64,000 bases of DNA. Origin: an uncultured Kiritimatiellota bacterium (GTDB lineage: Bacteria > Verrucomicrobiota > Kiritimatiellia > RFP12 > DVOR01). Shown here piece after piece: positions 15,175 to 63,123 of this stretch. The stretch lies in the NCBI GenBank assembly GCA_944391085.1, contig CALXSE010000009.1:1-64000 (forward strand). The letters are read 5' to 3'. How positions within the stretch are numbered: position 1 is the stretch's first letter; each line of letters begins with the position of its first letter. Under the pieces are notes generated by a model. It saw nothing but the letters and a program-made list of their open reading frames with translations. It was not told the origin of the DNA and made no database searches. Made by a program: the position numbers and the translations under genes.

Positions 15175-17007
15175 TCACGCCTCCCACAGTTCCCCGATGC
15201 GCCACCACAGCAACTGCGGGAGGGCGACGAGATACGTCTGCGGCACGAAGAGGAGATAGCGTGCGTAACGCTGCGTGCGGGAAGGACACTGCGTGATGGC
15301 ATGGTGGTAGGAGAGCGGCGGCTCGATCCTCTCGTTGAGCATGGCGGAAACGTAGGGGAAGCCGAAGTCGCGCCTGCGTGGTGAAACCGTTCCTGCCTCG
15401 ACCAACGGCAGTTCCCGCAGGGCGGGTGTTTGCCGGTGAATCAGGCGGATGGCGTTGTTTACGCCGTCGTCTTTGAAGAGACAGAGGGCCTGGAGGACGG
15501 GTTCGCGGAGGGCTGACTTCAGCTCGTAGGCGTGGTCGATCGGGAGCGCCGCAAAGAACAGGCCTTTGGCTACCGCCCCAGCGGCCAAGATGCCGCCAAG
15601 CGCCCATCCCAACGGCCTCCACCGTCTTGGGAAATCGGAGAGGAAGCACCCGACGGCCAGCGCGGGCAGGAGATAGAGCCAGGGCACATAGCGCAGATAA
15701 CCGACGTAGGCCGGAGGGAAGGCCACCACGCCGATTGCGCAGAAGAGAAGGGGCAAGCGCATGTCCCGGCCGCCAAAGAGCAGAAGACTTACGAGTGCAA
15801 CCAGGAACAAAATCCGCTCAGTCCCGGGCATTGGTTGGGAACCGTCCGAGCCATTCCATGCATTCCACACGCGGCACCACGGCTTGAAGCCCGGCCGGTC
15901 AAGCTTCCATGCGTAATAGGCACGGGTGAGGGACGGGCTCAGGTAGGCGTTGGTCAGTAGCCCCACATACCCCATCGCCTGGGCGTCCGCGTTCTTGTCG
16001 TGGAAGTTGGCGGTGATGTCGAACGCCGGGAAACGCGCCTCGTCCGCCGTATAGGCCGGGTAGAGCGGGTGGCCGACCTTGGCCCATGAGGTCAGGTAAG
16101 GCGCCGTGCAAACCCAGCAGAGCCCCGCCGTCAGCAAGACCCCACAGAATGCCAGCTGCGCCGCCCAACGCCGCCAGTTTTCGCGAAAGCGCCAGAACCC
16201 AAGGCCGGCGAACAGGCACCAAAAGACAAAGCACGTCAGCAAAGACGATTGCTTGGCCACCATCATCCACAGGGAGAAGATCAGCAGCGTTCCCCACGCG
16301 CGCTTCCCGTGCAAAATGCGCGCCATGGACAGCATCACGCCCACGCCGGTGAACGCGACGGTCGAATCGACCGCGCCAGGAAGTCCCCACCCGGAACCAA
16401 AAAACAGCGATGTCAGCGTCAGGGCCGACAAGCCACATACCCAATGGTTCCAGCCCTTTTCGCGCCCAAACCGCCAGAACGCCCCCAGGGCCGGCAACAA
16501 TAGGAATGGCGTTAACGCGAAGCTGACGTTGAATGGTTTCTGAGAGAAGGTGGCGAACACGGCGTTGAAGATCTCGACGGGGCGTGTGATGTAAAGGACG
16601 TGCCAACGCAGCATTTCCTCCAGCGGAAGGCCGGCCGCCGCGGCCAACGCCTCCGGCGTGGAGGCCCGCACCAGGTTCCACCCTTCCATCAGCAGCCGCG
16701 TCACTGGTATGTGATAACCCATGTTGTCGATTCCACCCAGCGCCAGGCACCCCGAAACAACCCAGATGGCCGCCAGGAAAAGCAGGAAGAGGCCCATCCC
16801 GGACAACCGTGCCCGTCAGGCAAACCGCGACTGCGCGGCGGCCACCGCGAACGCCGCCGCAAGCCCCAGCGCGAACTGCCAGGCGGAACAGCGCCCGCCG
16901 AACCAGAATGCAGCCGTCGCAGACAGCACCACCGCCAGCGGAAACGCCAAAACCATCCGTTCCAGCACGACAAGCGCCGGACGCAACCCACTGAATAACC
17001 CACGCAT
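15175..17007 (-). pseudogene. Polytopic membrane protein A, interrupted by one in-frame TGA (paralog of 32047-33969)
   Basis: From ATG 17007 the frame reads 63 residues (MRGLFSGLRPALVV...) to TGA at 16818-16816, then continues in the same frame without another stop to 15175. Read through, it is about 610 codons with around ten membrane segments. It aligns without gaps to the intact paralog B across the interruption: SRFA-stop-RARL here against GAGMRARL there. Other shared blocks are GIDNMGYHIP, EGWN, ADEARFPAFDIT, NADAQAMGYVG and NAYLSP. The D/Y/H-rich first loop suggests a GT-C-type membrane glycosyltransferase, by inference. A recent nonsense change is the simplest reading. A split product restarting at TTG 16806 or ATG 16797, UGA recoding, or a base error are alternatives. 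AGGAGG precedes ATG 17007. Confidence 0.75.
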
Positions 17008-17198
17008 AAAAACACGCCTCCTTTTCATGTTCCAACAGAGGCCCTAGCAAAGCCCGTCAACGAACATGTCAAAGGAGGCGTGCCAGATAAGCACGCCTCG
17101 CTCAGACTCATCGCCCGTTGACCGAAAGTTGCTAGGTTTCTGTTGGAGCGAATTGTCTACGCAAAGCGAAAACATTCCGTGGCTGCCCCACGGCGTGC
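17008..17198 (-). promoter_or_regulatory. Structured leader RNA of membrane gene A (candidate riboswitch, copy A)
   Basis: This minus-strand leader is about 190 nt. In 5'-3' order it has a hairpin CCGTGG/CCACGG (17193-17177) and the motif GAATGTTTT (17177-17169). The enclosing helix is CCAACAGA (17146-17139) with TCTGTTGG (17039-17032) plus CCTAGCAA (17136-17129) with TTGCTAGG (17050-17043), separated by AA on one side and GCC on the other. The inner helix is GTCAACG (17122-17116) with CGTTGAC (17062-17056). The central hairpin is GAGGCGTGC/GCACGCCTC (17099-17075). The arm CACGCCTCCTTT (17082-17071) can instead pair with AAAAGGAGGCGTG (17025-17013), which contains the Shine-Dalgarno and is followed by TTTTT and then ATG. 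These pairings exclude each other. Confidence 0.75.
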
Positions 17199-31718: not shown

Positions 31719-31849
31719 CTCGTCGGGCCGTCTTGTCCCCTCGGTCTTTCCGCCGCGAACTTGATGCTTTCCGCGCCGTGGCCGTGGTAAGGACATTGCG
31801 GGATTGTTGACGGCCACCGGCGGCGTTTCCCGTTTGAGCGGGTTTGTGG

Positions 31850-31855
31850 TATAGT
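31850..31855 (+). promoter_or_regulatory. Extended -10 box TATAGT for leader B
   Basis: TTTGTGGTATAGT matches the TGTGGTATnnT pattern of this window. Transcription should start near 31862, giving a leader of about 185 nt before ATG 32047. Confidence 0.6.
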
Positions 31856-31861
31856 ATGTGG

Positions 31862-32046
31862 CGTCCTGCGGGAGACATCCGCAGGGCATGCGTGCGCATG
31901 CACGAATGTTTTGCTCAACACGAAGTCTGGTAAACATCGAGAGGGCAAACGTTCGGGTGCGGCATATGCGTTGGCATATGCCCTCCCGTCTGTTTCTCTC
32001 AAGGCCTACCAGACGCCCGTGTTGGAACAGACGGGAGGGCCTTTTT
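31862..32046 (+). promoter_or_regulatory. Structured leader RNA of membrane gene B (candidate riboswitch, copy B)
   Basis: The leader mirrors copy A. Hairpin CCTGCGG/CCGCAGG (31865-31885) and an extra GCATGC hairpin come first, then the shared motif GAATGTTTT (31904-31912). The enclosing helix is CAACACG (31916-31922) with CGTGTTG (32018-32024) and GTCTGGTA (31925-31932) with TACCAGAC (32007-32014), split by AA and GCC exactly as in A. The inner helix is GAGAG (31939-31943) with CTCTC (31996-32000). The central hairpin is GGCATATGC/GCATATGCC (31961-31982). The final stem GCCCTCCCGTCTG (31980-31992) with CAGACGGGAGGGC (32028-32040) hides the GGGAGG site and is followed by CTTTTT and ATG. No known riboswitch class is recognised. 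Confidence 0.78.
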
Positions 32047-33969
32047 ATGGCATGGAGACGTTGGGGCGAGGCTGTCGCCCGGTTGAGGGAGCCGGTCCGG
32101 CGGGCCGAGTGTGCTGTTCTGTTTTTCCCGGTCGCGGTGACGGTGCTGGCGGCGTTGGCGCTGCTGTGTGGCGGACGGGTGGCCGCGTGGCAGTGGTGGG
32201 TGGCGACCGCGGCGGCGTTCGCGTGGCTGGCGCTCTGGCGAGGGGCGGGGATGCGCGCTCGGCTTGCGGCGTGCGGGGCCTTCGCGGTGGTGTTGGCGGG
32301 GATCTGGGTGGCGGCGGGATGCGTGGTCTCGCAGGGGGGAGTGGACAACGTGGTTTACCATTTTCCGGCCATCCGGCTCCTGATCGAGGGATGGAACCCG
32401 GTTTACGCGCCGACGCCGGAAACACTGGCCGCGTCGATGGGCGTGGAGCCCTGGGAGATGCGCCTGTGGCATGTGCTTGCTTTTCCCAAGGGCGTATGGA
32501 TTTTCAATGCCGCGGCGTATCGTTTTACGGGCGCGCCCTTTGCATTGACTTTCCCGCTGTGGCCCTTTCTCTTTCTGGCGGCGGCGGGGCAGGTGGCGCG
32601 GCTGTTGCGGACGATGGGATGGGGGATGTGCCTGGTCGCGGTGGTGTTGCTATGGGCGTGGGCACCGGCGCATGGGGGGATCACGGACGCGGCGGTCTGC
32701 CTGGGCGGGGTGGGGGTGCTGGCGGTGATGGCGCGGGCGTTGGCGGGGGAGCGCGGGGTGGCGTTGCCGTTGGTTTGCCTGAGTTTCTGGATGATGGTGT
32801 CCAAGCAGGTGGGGTTGCTGGCCTGCTTCGTCTTTTGGGCGTGCTTCGCGGCGGTTTTGCTGTGGCGGGCGCGCTGGGCGGCGGTGCCGCGGCTGGCGGC
32901 GTTTGGCGGGGTGCTGATGGCGCTTTTCCTGGTGGTGTGCGCGAACCCGTACCTGACGTCGTGGCGGCATTACGGGCACCCGCTTTATCCGATGGTCTCG
33001 GCCGACGAGGCGCGCTTCCCGGCCCATGACCTGACGGAGGATTTCTCCATCTGCAACGCGGACGCTCAGGCGATGGGGCATGTGGGGAGCTTTGTGAACG
33101 CCTATCTTTCCCCTTGGCTGGCCGCGCGTTATTATGAGTGGCGGCTGGGGCGCGGGGACTTCGCCCCCAATCGTTACGTGTGGTGGCAGACGAACCCCGA
33201 GGCGTGCGAGGCCGCGCCGTTGCCGGCGGGGGAACGGTGGGGGCTGTTGGCGGCCTTTGCGGCGGTGGCGCTGTTTGGGGGGCGGCGGCTGCGGTTCGTC
33301 TGGGTGGCGGCGGCGGTGGGGCTTTTCGCCTTCCCGGCGGTCTATTTCGGCTTTCTGCGGTATGCGCCGTGGGTGGCGTTGGTGAAGGCGCTGGGGGTGG
33401 CGGCGACGGCGGATTGGGCGGCGCGGCGCTTGCCGCGGGCGGGGCGCGCCGTGGCGTGGGGGGCGTTGGCGGCGGCGGTGGGGGTGGTCGGGGGGCGGGC
33501 GGCGCTTTACGCCGCCATCCAGATCGACCAGGCGGAGCAGATGCGCGAGGTGTTGCGGCGGTCGCCGCCGAAGGTGTTGCGCATGTACACGTATGGCGGC
33601 GACCGCTCGCTGGAGGCCGCGGCGCGGCATGGTTACCCTTCCATCGACCCGGCGACGTTTGGGGATCGCTCGCAGATCGTGTTGCTCAACCTGCGCCTGC
33701 TGACCCGGCAGGTGCCGGCGCTCCGTGGGGCGGAGGTGCGGCGGATGAGCCTTGAGGAGCTGGCGGTTTTCCCGCCGGGGCCGAACGAGGAGTTCCGGAT
33801 GGGCCCGGATTACGACCCGAAGGCGTGGTCGGGCTGGGCGCGGAACGCCGCGAACCCGAACCGTCTGGCGCGGTACCTGAACTATCCGTCGCTGGTGCTG
33901 CGGGCCTATTGCGTGGCGTTGCCCCGGGGCGTGTTGGCGCGGCTGGAGGGGCTCCTCCCCGGGAGGTGA
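32047..33969 (+). CDS. Polytopic membrane protein B (possible GT-C-type glycosyltransferase)
   Basis: A 640-residue integral membrane protein with around ten to twelve hydrophobic helices. After two N-terminal helices comes QGGVDNVVYHFPAIRLLIEGWNPVY, a first-loop pattern (acidic residue, then YHxP) like that of GT-C sugar transferases of the PMT/ArnT type. ADEARFPAHDLTEDF, NADAQAMGHVG and FVNAYLSPW are shared with the interrupted paralog A, ungapped over the N-terminal 90 residues. A C-terminal soluble part (from about 535) ends GVLARLEGLLPGR. GGGAGG, eight bases before ATG 32047, lies inside the terminator-like hairpin of the leader, so both transcription and translation should respond to the leader fold. 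The function is inferred, not shown. Confidence 0.75.
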   Translation: MAWRRWGEAVARLREPVRRAECAVLFFPVAVTVLAALALLCGGRVAAWQWWVATAAAFAWLALWRGAGMRARLAACGAFAVVLAGIWVAAGCVVSQGGVDNVVYHFPAIRLLIEGWNPVYAPTPETLAASMGVEPWEMRLWHVLAFPKGVWIFNAAAYRFTGAPFALTFPLWPFLFLAAAGQVARLLRTMGWGMCLVAVVLLWAWAPAHGGITDAAVCLGGVGVLAVMARALAGERGVALPLVCLSFWMMVSKQVGLLACFVFWACFAAVLLWRARWAAVPRLAAFGGVLMALFLVVCANPYLTSWRHYGHPLYPMVSADEARFPAHDLTEDFSICNADAQAMGHVGSFVNAYLSPWLAARYYEWRLGRGDFAPNRYVWWQTNPEACEAAPLPAGERWGLLAAFAAVALFGGRRLRFVWVAAAVGLFAFPAVYFGFLRYAPWVALVKALGVAATADWAARRLPRAGRAVAWGALAAAVGVVGGRAALYAAIQIDQAEQMREVLRRSPPKVLRMYTYGGDRSLEAAARHGYPSIDPATFGDRSQIVLLNLRLLTRQVPALRGAEVRRMSLEELAVFPPGPNEEFRMGPDYDPKAWSGWARNAANPNRLARYLNYPSLVLRAYCVALPRGVLARLEGLLPGR

Positions 33970-62934: not shown

Positions 62935-63123
62935 GGCACGCCGCGGGAAGCCGCAGCGACACTGCGCTTTAAGCGACAGGTGCTCCCTTGAAACCTGAGA
63001 AACTTCATTGTCCGGGCCCCGCGTCAAATAAGGTGCGCCACTTTTGGCGCATCCCTTTGGCATGTATCCGGACAAGGCTCCTCAGGGCCGCAAGGGATTA
63101 CAGGTGAAGGTGGTGCGCCTTTT
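62935..63123 (+). ncRNA. Candidate 190-nt structured RNA (6S-like size and rod shape)
   Basis: The 5' end GGCACGCC (62935-62942) can pair with GGTGCGCC (63112-63119), with one mismatch and one wobble, and is followed by TTTTC. Inside, CCCTT/AAGGG (62985-62989 with 63092-63096), CCTGAG/CTCAGG (62994-62999 with 63081-63086) and TTGTCCGG/CCGGACAA (63008-63015 with 63068-63075) stack into one long interrupted helix with an apical hairpin TGCGCCA/TGGCGCA. An asymmetric open region (42 against 15 nt) sits above the closing stem. Length, single-rod shape and the CAAGGGATTACAG element recall 6S RNA, but small 5' hairpins do not fit the standard model. tmRNA, SRP RNA and RNase P motifs are absent. Confidence 0.5.

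Follow-up and report, generated by a model that had tools for sequence, protein, structure and literature searches.

Several described systems resemble the element reported here. Riboswitch-type attenuators, such as the c-di-GMP class among the cis-regulatory families of Rfam, carry a covarying domain in 5' leaders together with an alternative helix that forms a terminator or sequesters the Shine-Dalgarno (SD) sequence, and c-di-GMP riboswitches are used in many copies per genome. Long surface-polysaccharide operons are controlled elsewhere by protein antitermination; the leaders of processive antitermination at polysaccharide operons include JUMPstart/ops-RfaH, EAR and the LoaP hairpins. Integron attC sites, furthermore, form a stem with unpaired internal bases and have ends of the GTT/AAC type. 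Comparative genomics has also yielded orphan structured RNA motifs, for example a set of 104 candidates (PMC2864571), and a recent account describes the control of restriction-modification genes via a protein repressor, RptR (PMC12255303). The literature that we searched, with most subscription journals outside its coverage, contained neither an RNA leader class for restriction-modification genes nor a description of the present motif.

The locus examined here lies in a window of 64,000 nucleotides, the whole stretch of DNA that was analysed, from an uncultured Kiritimatiellota bacterium (contig CALXSE010000009.1). Its element is one of a family of folded RNAs that has not been catalogued before, reaches ~30 copies per genome and occurs across this bacterial phylum, in which little RNA regulation is known; the family is a covarying RNA class that occupies gene leaders, carries terminator or SD signals and contains helices that are mutually exclusive in a nested fold. 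Like the riboswitch-type attenuators, it combines a covarying domain with an alternative terminator or SD-sequestering helix and is present in many copies per genome, but it matches no Rfam covariance model and its targets are mainly DNA methylase/defence, polysaccharide and surface genes. The JUMPstart/ops-RfaH, EAR and LoaP leaders likewise precede exopolysaccharide genes, whereas the present element has its own terminator/SD platform, many single-gene targets, in many copies a start codon directly behind it and, again, no Rfam match. It also resembles the orphan motifs in kind, as a structured RNA that comparison brought to light (some of those motifs likewise stand ahead of genes), but Rfam release 15, in which such families are curated, contains no match to it. 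We regard it as quite probable that the leader at the centre of this study, copy B, is one of a new class of cis-acting leader RNAs that act like a two-state attenuator or riboswitch.

Copy B lies on the plus strand behind an extended -10 promoter of the TGnTAYnnT pattern (TGGTATAGT, 31847-31855). The 5' end of the RNA forms the hairpin P1 (31865-31885), an inverted repeat of CCTGCGG and CCGCAGG, and is followed by the short hairpin P2 (GCATGCGTGCGCATGC, 31886-31901), which has a counterpart at the matching place in most of the copies inspected. The large helix P3 spans 31916-32024 and is composed of an outer helix of 7 bp (CAACACG, 31916-31922, with CGTGTTG, 32018-32024), an internal loop in which AA (31923-31924) faces GCC (32015-32017), and an inner helix of 8 bp (GTCTGGTA, 31925-31932, with TACCAGAC, 32007-32014). 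Within P3, the helix P4 (31939-32000; GAGAG, 31939-31943, with CTCTC, 31996-32000) encloses P5, and the central hairpin P6 (GGCATATGC/GCATATGCC, 31961-31982) was recognised as an inverted repeat and in the matched-pair test described below. Downstream of P3 are the SD sequence GGAGG (32034-32038) and a U-run (32042-32046), directly followed by the ATG (32047) of a gene for a 640-residue polytopic membrane protein without a Pfam family (32047-33969).

Two further helices run across this nested drawing. In the early 5' hairpin HA (31910-31949), TTTGCTC (31910-31916) pairs with GGGCAAA (31943-31949); HA crosses both P3 and P4 and was absent from the earlier description of the leader. In the terminator or SD-sequestering helix (31980-32040), furthermore, 31980-31994 pairs with 32026-32040 over 15 nt without a mismatch, and part of its 5' strand also belongs to the 3' arm of P6. 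Because the 3' arm of the leader is perfectly complementary to a strand overlapping P6, that strand has two possible partners, and the 15-nt alternative is invisible in a nested drawing.

The first-pass annotation had described copy B as the second instance of a leader architecture already seen in copy A, and both are indeed members of the structured-RNA family. Copy A is on the minus strand (~17213-17005); its core domain (17028-17150) is followed by the 3' arm AAAAGGAGGCGTG with SD, U-run and ATG (17005-17027, the ATG at 17007-17005). The short blocks of shared sequence held up as well: GAATGTTTT (B, 31904-31912; A, 17177-17169) and TGTTGGAACA (B, 32020-32029; A, 17037-17028) are each found at exactly two places in the window, and two matches to the shared blocks were obtained in none of 100 shuffles. 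As to the enclosing helix, the 7+8 pairs given for B are correct, but a descriptor scan assigns 9+8 pairs to A (TCCAACAGA AA CCTAGCAA with TTGCTAGG GCC TCTGTTGGA) instead of the proposed 8+8. The central hairpin, the SD-containing final arm and the U-run before the ATG were all located in copy B, and the genes behind the two copies are paralogs, as had been stated, with 45% identity. The gene after copy A (15175-17007, minus strand) has its reading frame broken by a TGA at codon 64 (16818-16816), which makes it either a pseudogene or the site of a sequencing error. Against dinucleotide shuffles, the folding of copies A and B had z-scores of -6.2 and -4.4, respectively.

The claim that the RNA structure is under selection is borne out by two kinds of test. 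Among 77 distinct sequences, 92.8% of the paired cells were standard pairs; all 40 pairs varied, 39 of them with two-sided changes, and none of 500 shuffles equalled the observed covariation. All P3 columns covaried, and sliding the structures by 1-3 columns collapsed the paired fraction to 32-50%. Since this alignment was fitted to a model, an alignment-free test was added over 154 copies, in which the pairing between the 5' and 3' strands of one copy is compared with pairing to the strands of other copies. Matched strands beat mismatched ones in P3 (0.985 for the outer and 0.943 for the inner helix), P4 (0.946), P6 (0.852), the terminator helix (0.903) and HA (0.887 and 0.834 in two tests), and five control window pairs gave 0.457-0.518. 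A chance origin is excluded by these shuffles and controls. Two candidate pairings were rejected: a local GAAA/TTTC helix inside the HA hairpin gave no covariation signal (0.498), and an outward extension of P3 into TGCTT, which shares bases with HA, gave mixed results, with unsupportive matched pairs (0.529) and weakly supportive column covariation. Outside the variable helices, the least variable positions are GAAA, AAnTTTC, GG..TT and GCCTC around the inner P3 helix.

Further copies, which the first-pass annotation had proposed to look for in related genomes, proved to be numerous. A descriptor consisting of six or more pairs, AA/GCC and again six or more pairs, which matched once in 640 kb of mononucleotide-shuffled window, turned up additional copies in related genomes, and a third copy in the source genome was located ahead of another membrane paralog (L023). 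A nine-copy alignment, with two-sided changes in 26 of 40 predicted pairs, gave a covariance model (R1) that found 30 copies in the source genome (1.73 Mb), was positive in 16 of the 17 genomes of the genus (at most 34 copies per genome) and had matches in 87 of 115 genomes of the order and 52 of 289 of the phylum. A second model (R2), built from 79 matches with A and B left out, recovered copy A at 103.3 bits (E 6e-21) and copy B at E 7e-8, and matched 115 of 388 sampled genomes of the phylum, that is, 61 of 199 genera. The E-values of these searches are rough and many of the genomes are draft assemblies; the match-free genomes serve as a built-in negative control. That the motif lies outside Rfam also stands: release 15 gave no covariance-model match in the window and, when 26 more loci were scanned at E<=1, nothing but tRNA matches or unrelated chance matches, by which a known Rfam family is ruled out.

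Copy B itself is a member of a divergent subtype, since it shares the blocks GCAAACGTTCGGGTG and CCTCCCGTCTGTTTCTCTC with a close relative in the same genome (L100, G000:C10:13458-13580) that stands ahead of a DNA methylase gene. An ortholog of the gene after copy B in another genome (L004, G004:C13, ~1430-1505) is 93% identical but has a leader without ~94 nt; the gap falls between two GAGGGC repeats, so that most of the element is gone while SD and ATG remain, and represents either a natural deletion or an assembly artefact.

With regard to the genes behind the element, the earlier expectation that it marks the membrane-protein family is too narrow, as most copies precede other genes. Four members of this family do follow a copy in the source genome; at least one member (L008), however, has none, and this element-free locus together with the many other targets rules out a strict link. 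The other source-genome targets are about 12 PEP-CTERM-type secreted proteins, GtrA, an acyltransferase-3, a glycosyltransferase, an F420-dehydrogenase-beta-like protein, an EcoRI-type methylase, an N6/N4 methylase, an Mrr/ResIII restriction protein and a protein with a weak MmeI-methylase match. At distant loci, EcoRI-type methylases account for 12 of 83 scanned ORFs, counted per ORF, some being second-choice ORFs of one locus with gene starts picked by simple scoring; defence families there comprise DrmD/HKD-Snf2 helicases, BrxC, a type III methylase, QatA and BPTD_3080 restriction families, and lipoproteins, zinc-ribbon proteins and sulfatase-modifying-factor-like proteins were also found. 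In the reverse direction, the element was upstream on the same strand at 24 of 30 high-scoring EcoRI-type adenine methylase loci of the order, and just upstream at 1 of 30 loci in the general N6/N4 methylase family. Every one of the 24 elements that R1 detected at methylase loci was upstream of and co-directional with the gene. The BREX-like DUF6079 family offered a single gene in the order for such an association test. Separately, we noticed a second GC-rich conserved stretch (GCGCAC..GGGCGYGTGTCTGTGGCGCAC) between the element and several PEP-CTERM genes (L083, L087, L088, L092, L095 and L096, downstream of the element), and an ORF for an IS256/Mutator-family transposase preceded by a copy at L148/L201 (G116:C34).

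The two sets of covarying helices, P3-P6 on the one hand and HA with the 3' terminator/SD helix on the other, are incompatible in a nested fold. In the nested ensembles of 153 copies, P3 and the terminator never both exceeded 0.5, and in the copies in which these two compete, HA and the terminator rose and fell together (0.466 and 0.472 in copy B; 0.984 and 0.984 in L100). At equilibrium in the nested model, P3 won in 143 of the 153 copies and the terminator in 7; the terminator should thus need kinetic trapping or a ligand. Copy B is predicted to fold near balance (P3 0.51, terminator 0.47), and folding of its lengthening transcript is predicted to produce HA first, in transcripts ending 40-75 nt into the core, and P3, which displaces HA, later. 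In the 5' leaders of its targets, then, the covarying RNA domain expected of an attenuator is accompanied by a competing pairing that would make a terminator or mask the SD sequence, as indicated by covariation, the U-run, the ATG directly behind it in many copies and exclusivity in the nested ensemble.

These features can be arranged in a mechanism by which the leader probably turns its target genes on and off. The early hairpin HA would form before the other helices. If HA persists, the downstream arm would capture the 3' arm of P6 to give the terminator helix followed by the U-run, and in copies with an ATG directly behind, the same helix would also hide the SD sequence; the gene would be off in either case. 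If instead P3, P4 and P5 form, with the AA/GCC and AAnTTTC/GGGC loops enclosed, P6 would stay intact, the downstream arm would be free and the gene would be on. We infer that the helices switch in the cell with P3 as the ON state and that a ligand, which would most likely be a small molecule or a signalling nucleotide, biases the choice of fold, probably at the conserved P3 loops. The same two-fold leader might be read instead by an RNA-binding protein, an antiterminator or a translational repressor; a protein effector is possible because the targets have no single metabolic theme, and their shared surface/defence flavour as well as the conserved internal loops, which are also typical of protein sites, would suit it, as would the protein antitermination known from long surface-polysaccharide operons, but so large and conserved an architecture, equipped with a terminator/SD platform of its own, resembles a riboswitch, and we consider a protein reader somewhat unlikely. 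Slightly less likely still is a compact pseudoknot that holds HA, P3 and P4 at the same time and leaves only P6 and the terminator to switch. The 5' strand of HA does end beside the P3 core, with an overlap of 0-2 nt in 80 of 154 copies; the near-zero linkers across P3 and P4 would nonetheless demand strong bending, the 3' strand of HA overlaps the 5' strand of P4 in most copies, and P3 displaces HA as the RNA lengthens in the folding prediction.

One RNA leader links restriction-modification and other defence genes with exopolysaccharides and PEP-CTERM surface proteins, and their common signal is hence directly testable. The composition of this regulon is suggestive of a common surface or phage-defence state. 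A bolder proposal, that this is a phylum-wide, many-copy riboswitch whose main job is to control phage-defence/DNA-modification and surface-sugar/PEP-CTERM genes in response to a signalling molecule so far not linked to the control of defence, is offered tentatively and may well be wrong.

In the source genome, 25 of 30 copies have the TGnTAYnnT promoter pattern at 46-58 nt before the core, compared with 13 of 300 control windows, and 25 of the 30 have a P1 motif of the GGG..AGCC type. Behind the 3' arm, a U-run is present in 134 of 154 copies, compared with 115 of 745 control windows. An ATG directly follows the U-run in 57 of the 154, and the SD sequence is then inside the RNA. With the SD in the arm of some copies and the start codon further downstream in others, one RNA seems to serve both as a translational and as a transcriptional platform. 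The element's own promoter, placed at a fixed distance, and a 3' end resembling a terminator would also befit a stand-alone small RNA that lies upstream of genes by happenstance, but the ATG at the U-run, the SD within the RNA and the uniform orientation at the methylase genes make this quite improbable. Least probable of all is a dispersed DNA repeat (REP/BIME-like, or an attC-like recombination site) hitch-hiking with mobile genes, for although there are many copies per genome, some targets such as restriction-modification genes are commonly mobile, a transposase follows one copy, and the stem with unpaired bases and the R-box-like ends GTTGG/CCAAC recall attC, the copies diverge in sequence and not in structure, they are dispersed upstream of genes with promoter, U-run/SD and gene orientation all fixed, no cassette array was seen around the element, and plasmid and phage records (one query each) gave no match. 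Viral contigs, in a weak test with three exact patterns, gave none either.

Finally, a third copy in the window, copy D (62979-63102, plus strand; 79.3 bits with R2), is not followed by a PEP-CTERM-type gene, whereas its downstream sequence resembles that preceding PEP-CTERM genes elsewhere; infA lies beyond and has its own promoter, and copy D is probably an orphan left behind after gene loss. Also, we noticed a pair of same-strand elements ~1.3 kb apart elsewhere in the source genome (L079 and L090, G000:C4:2797-4355), each standing before a gene of its own.
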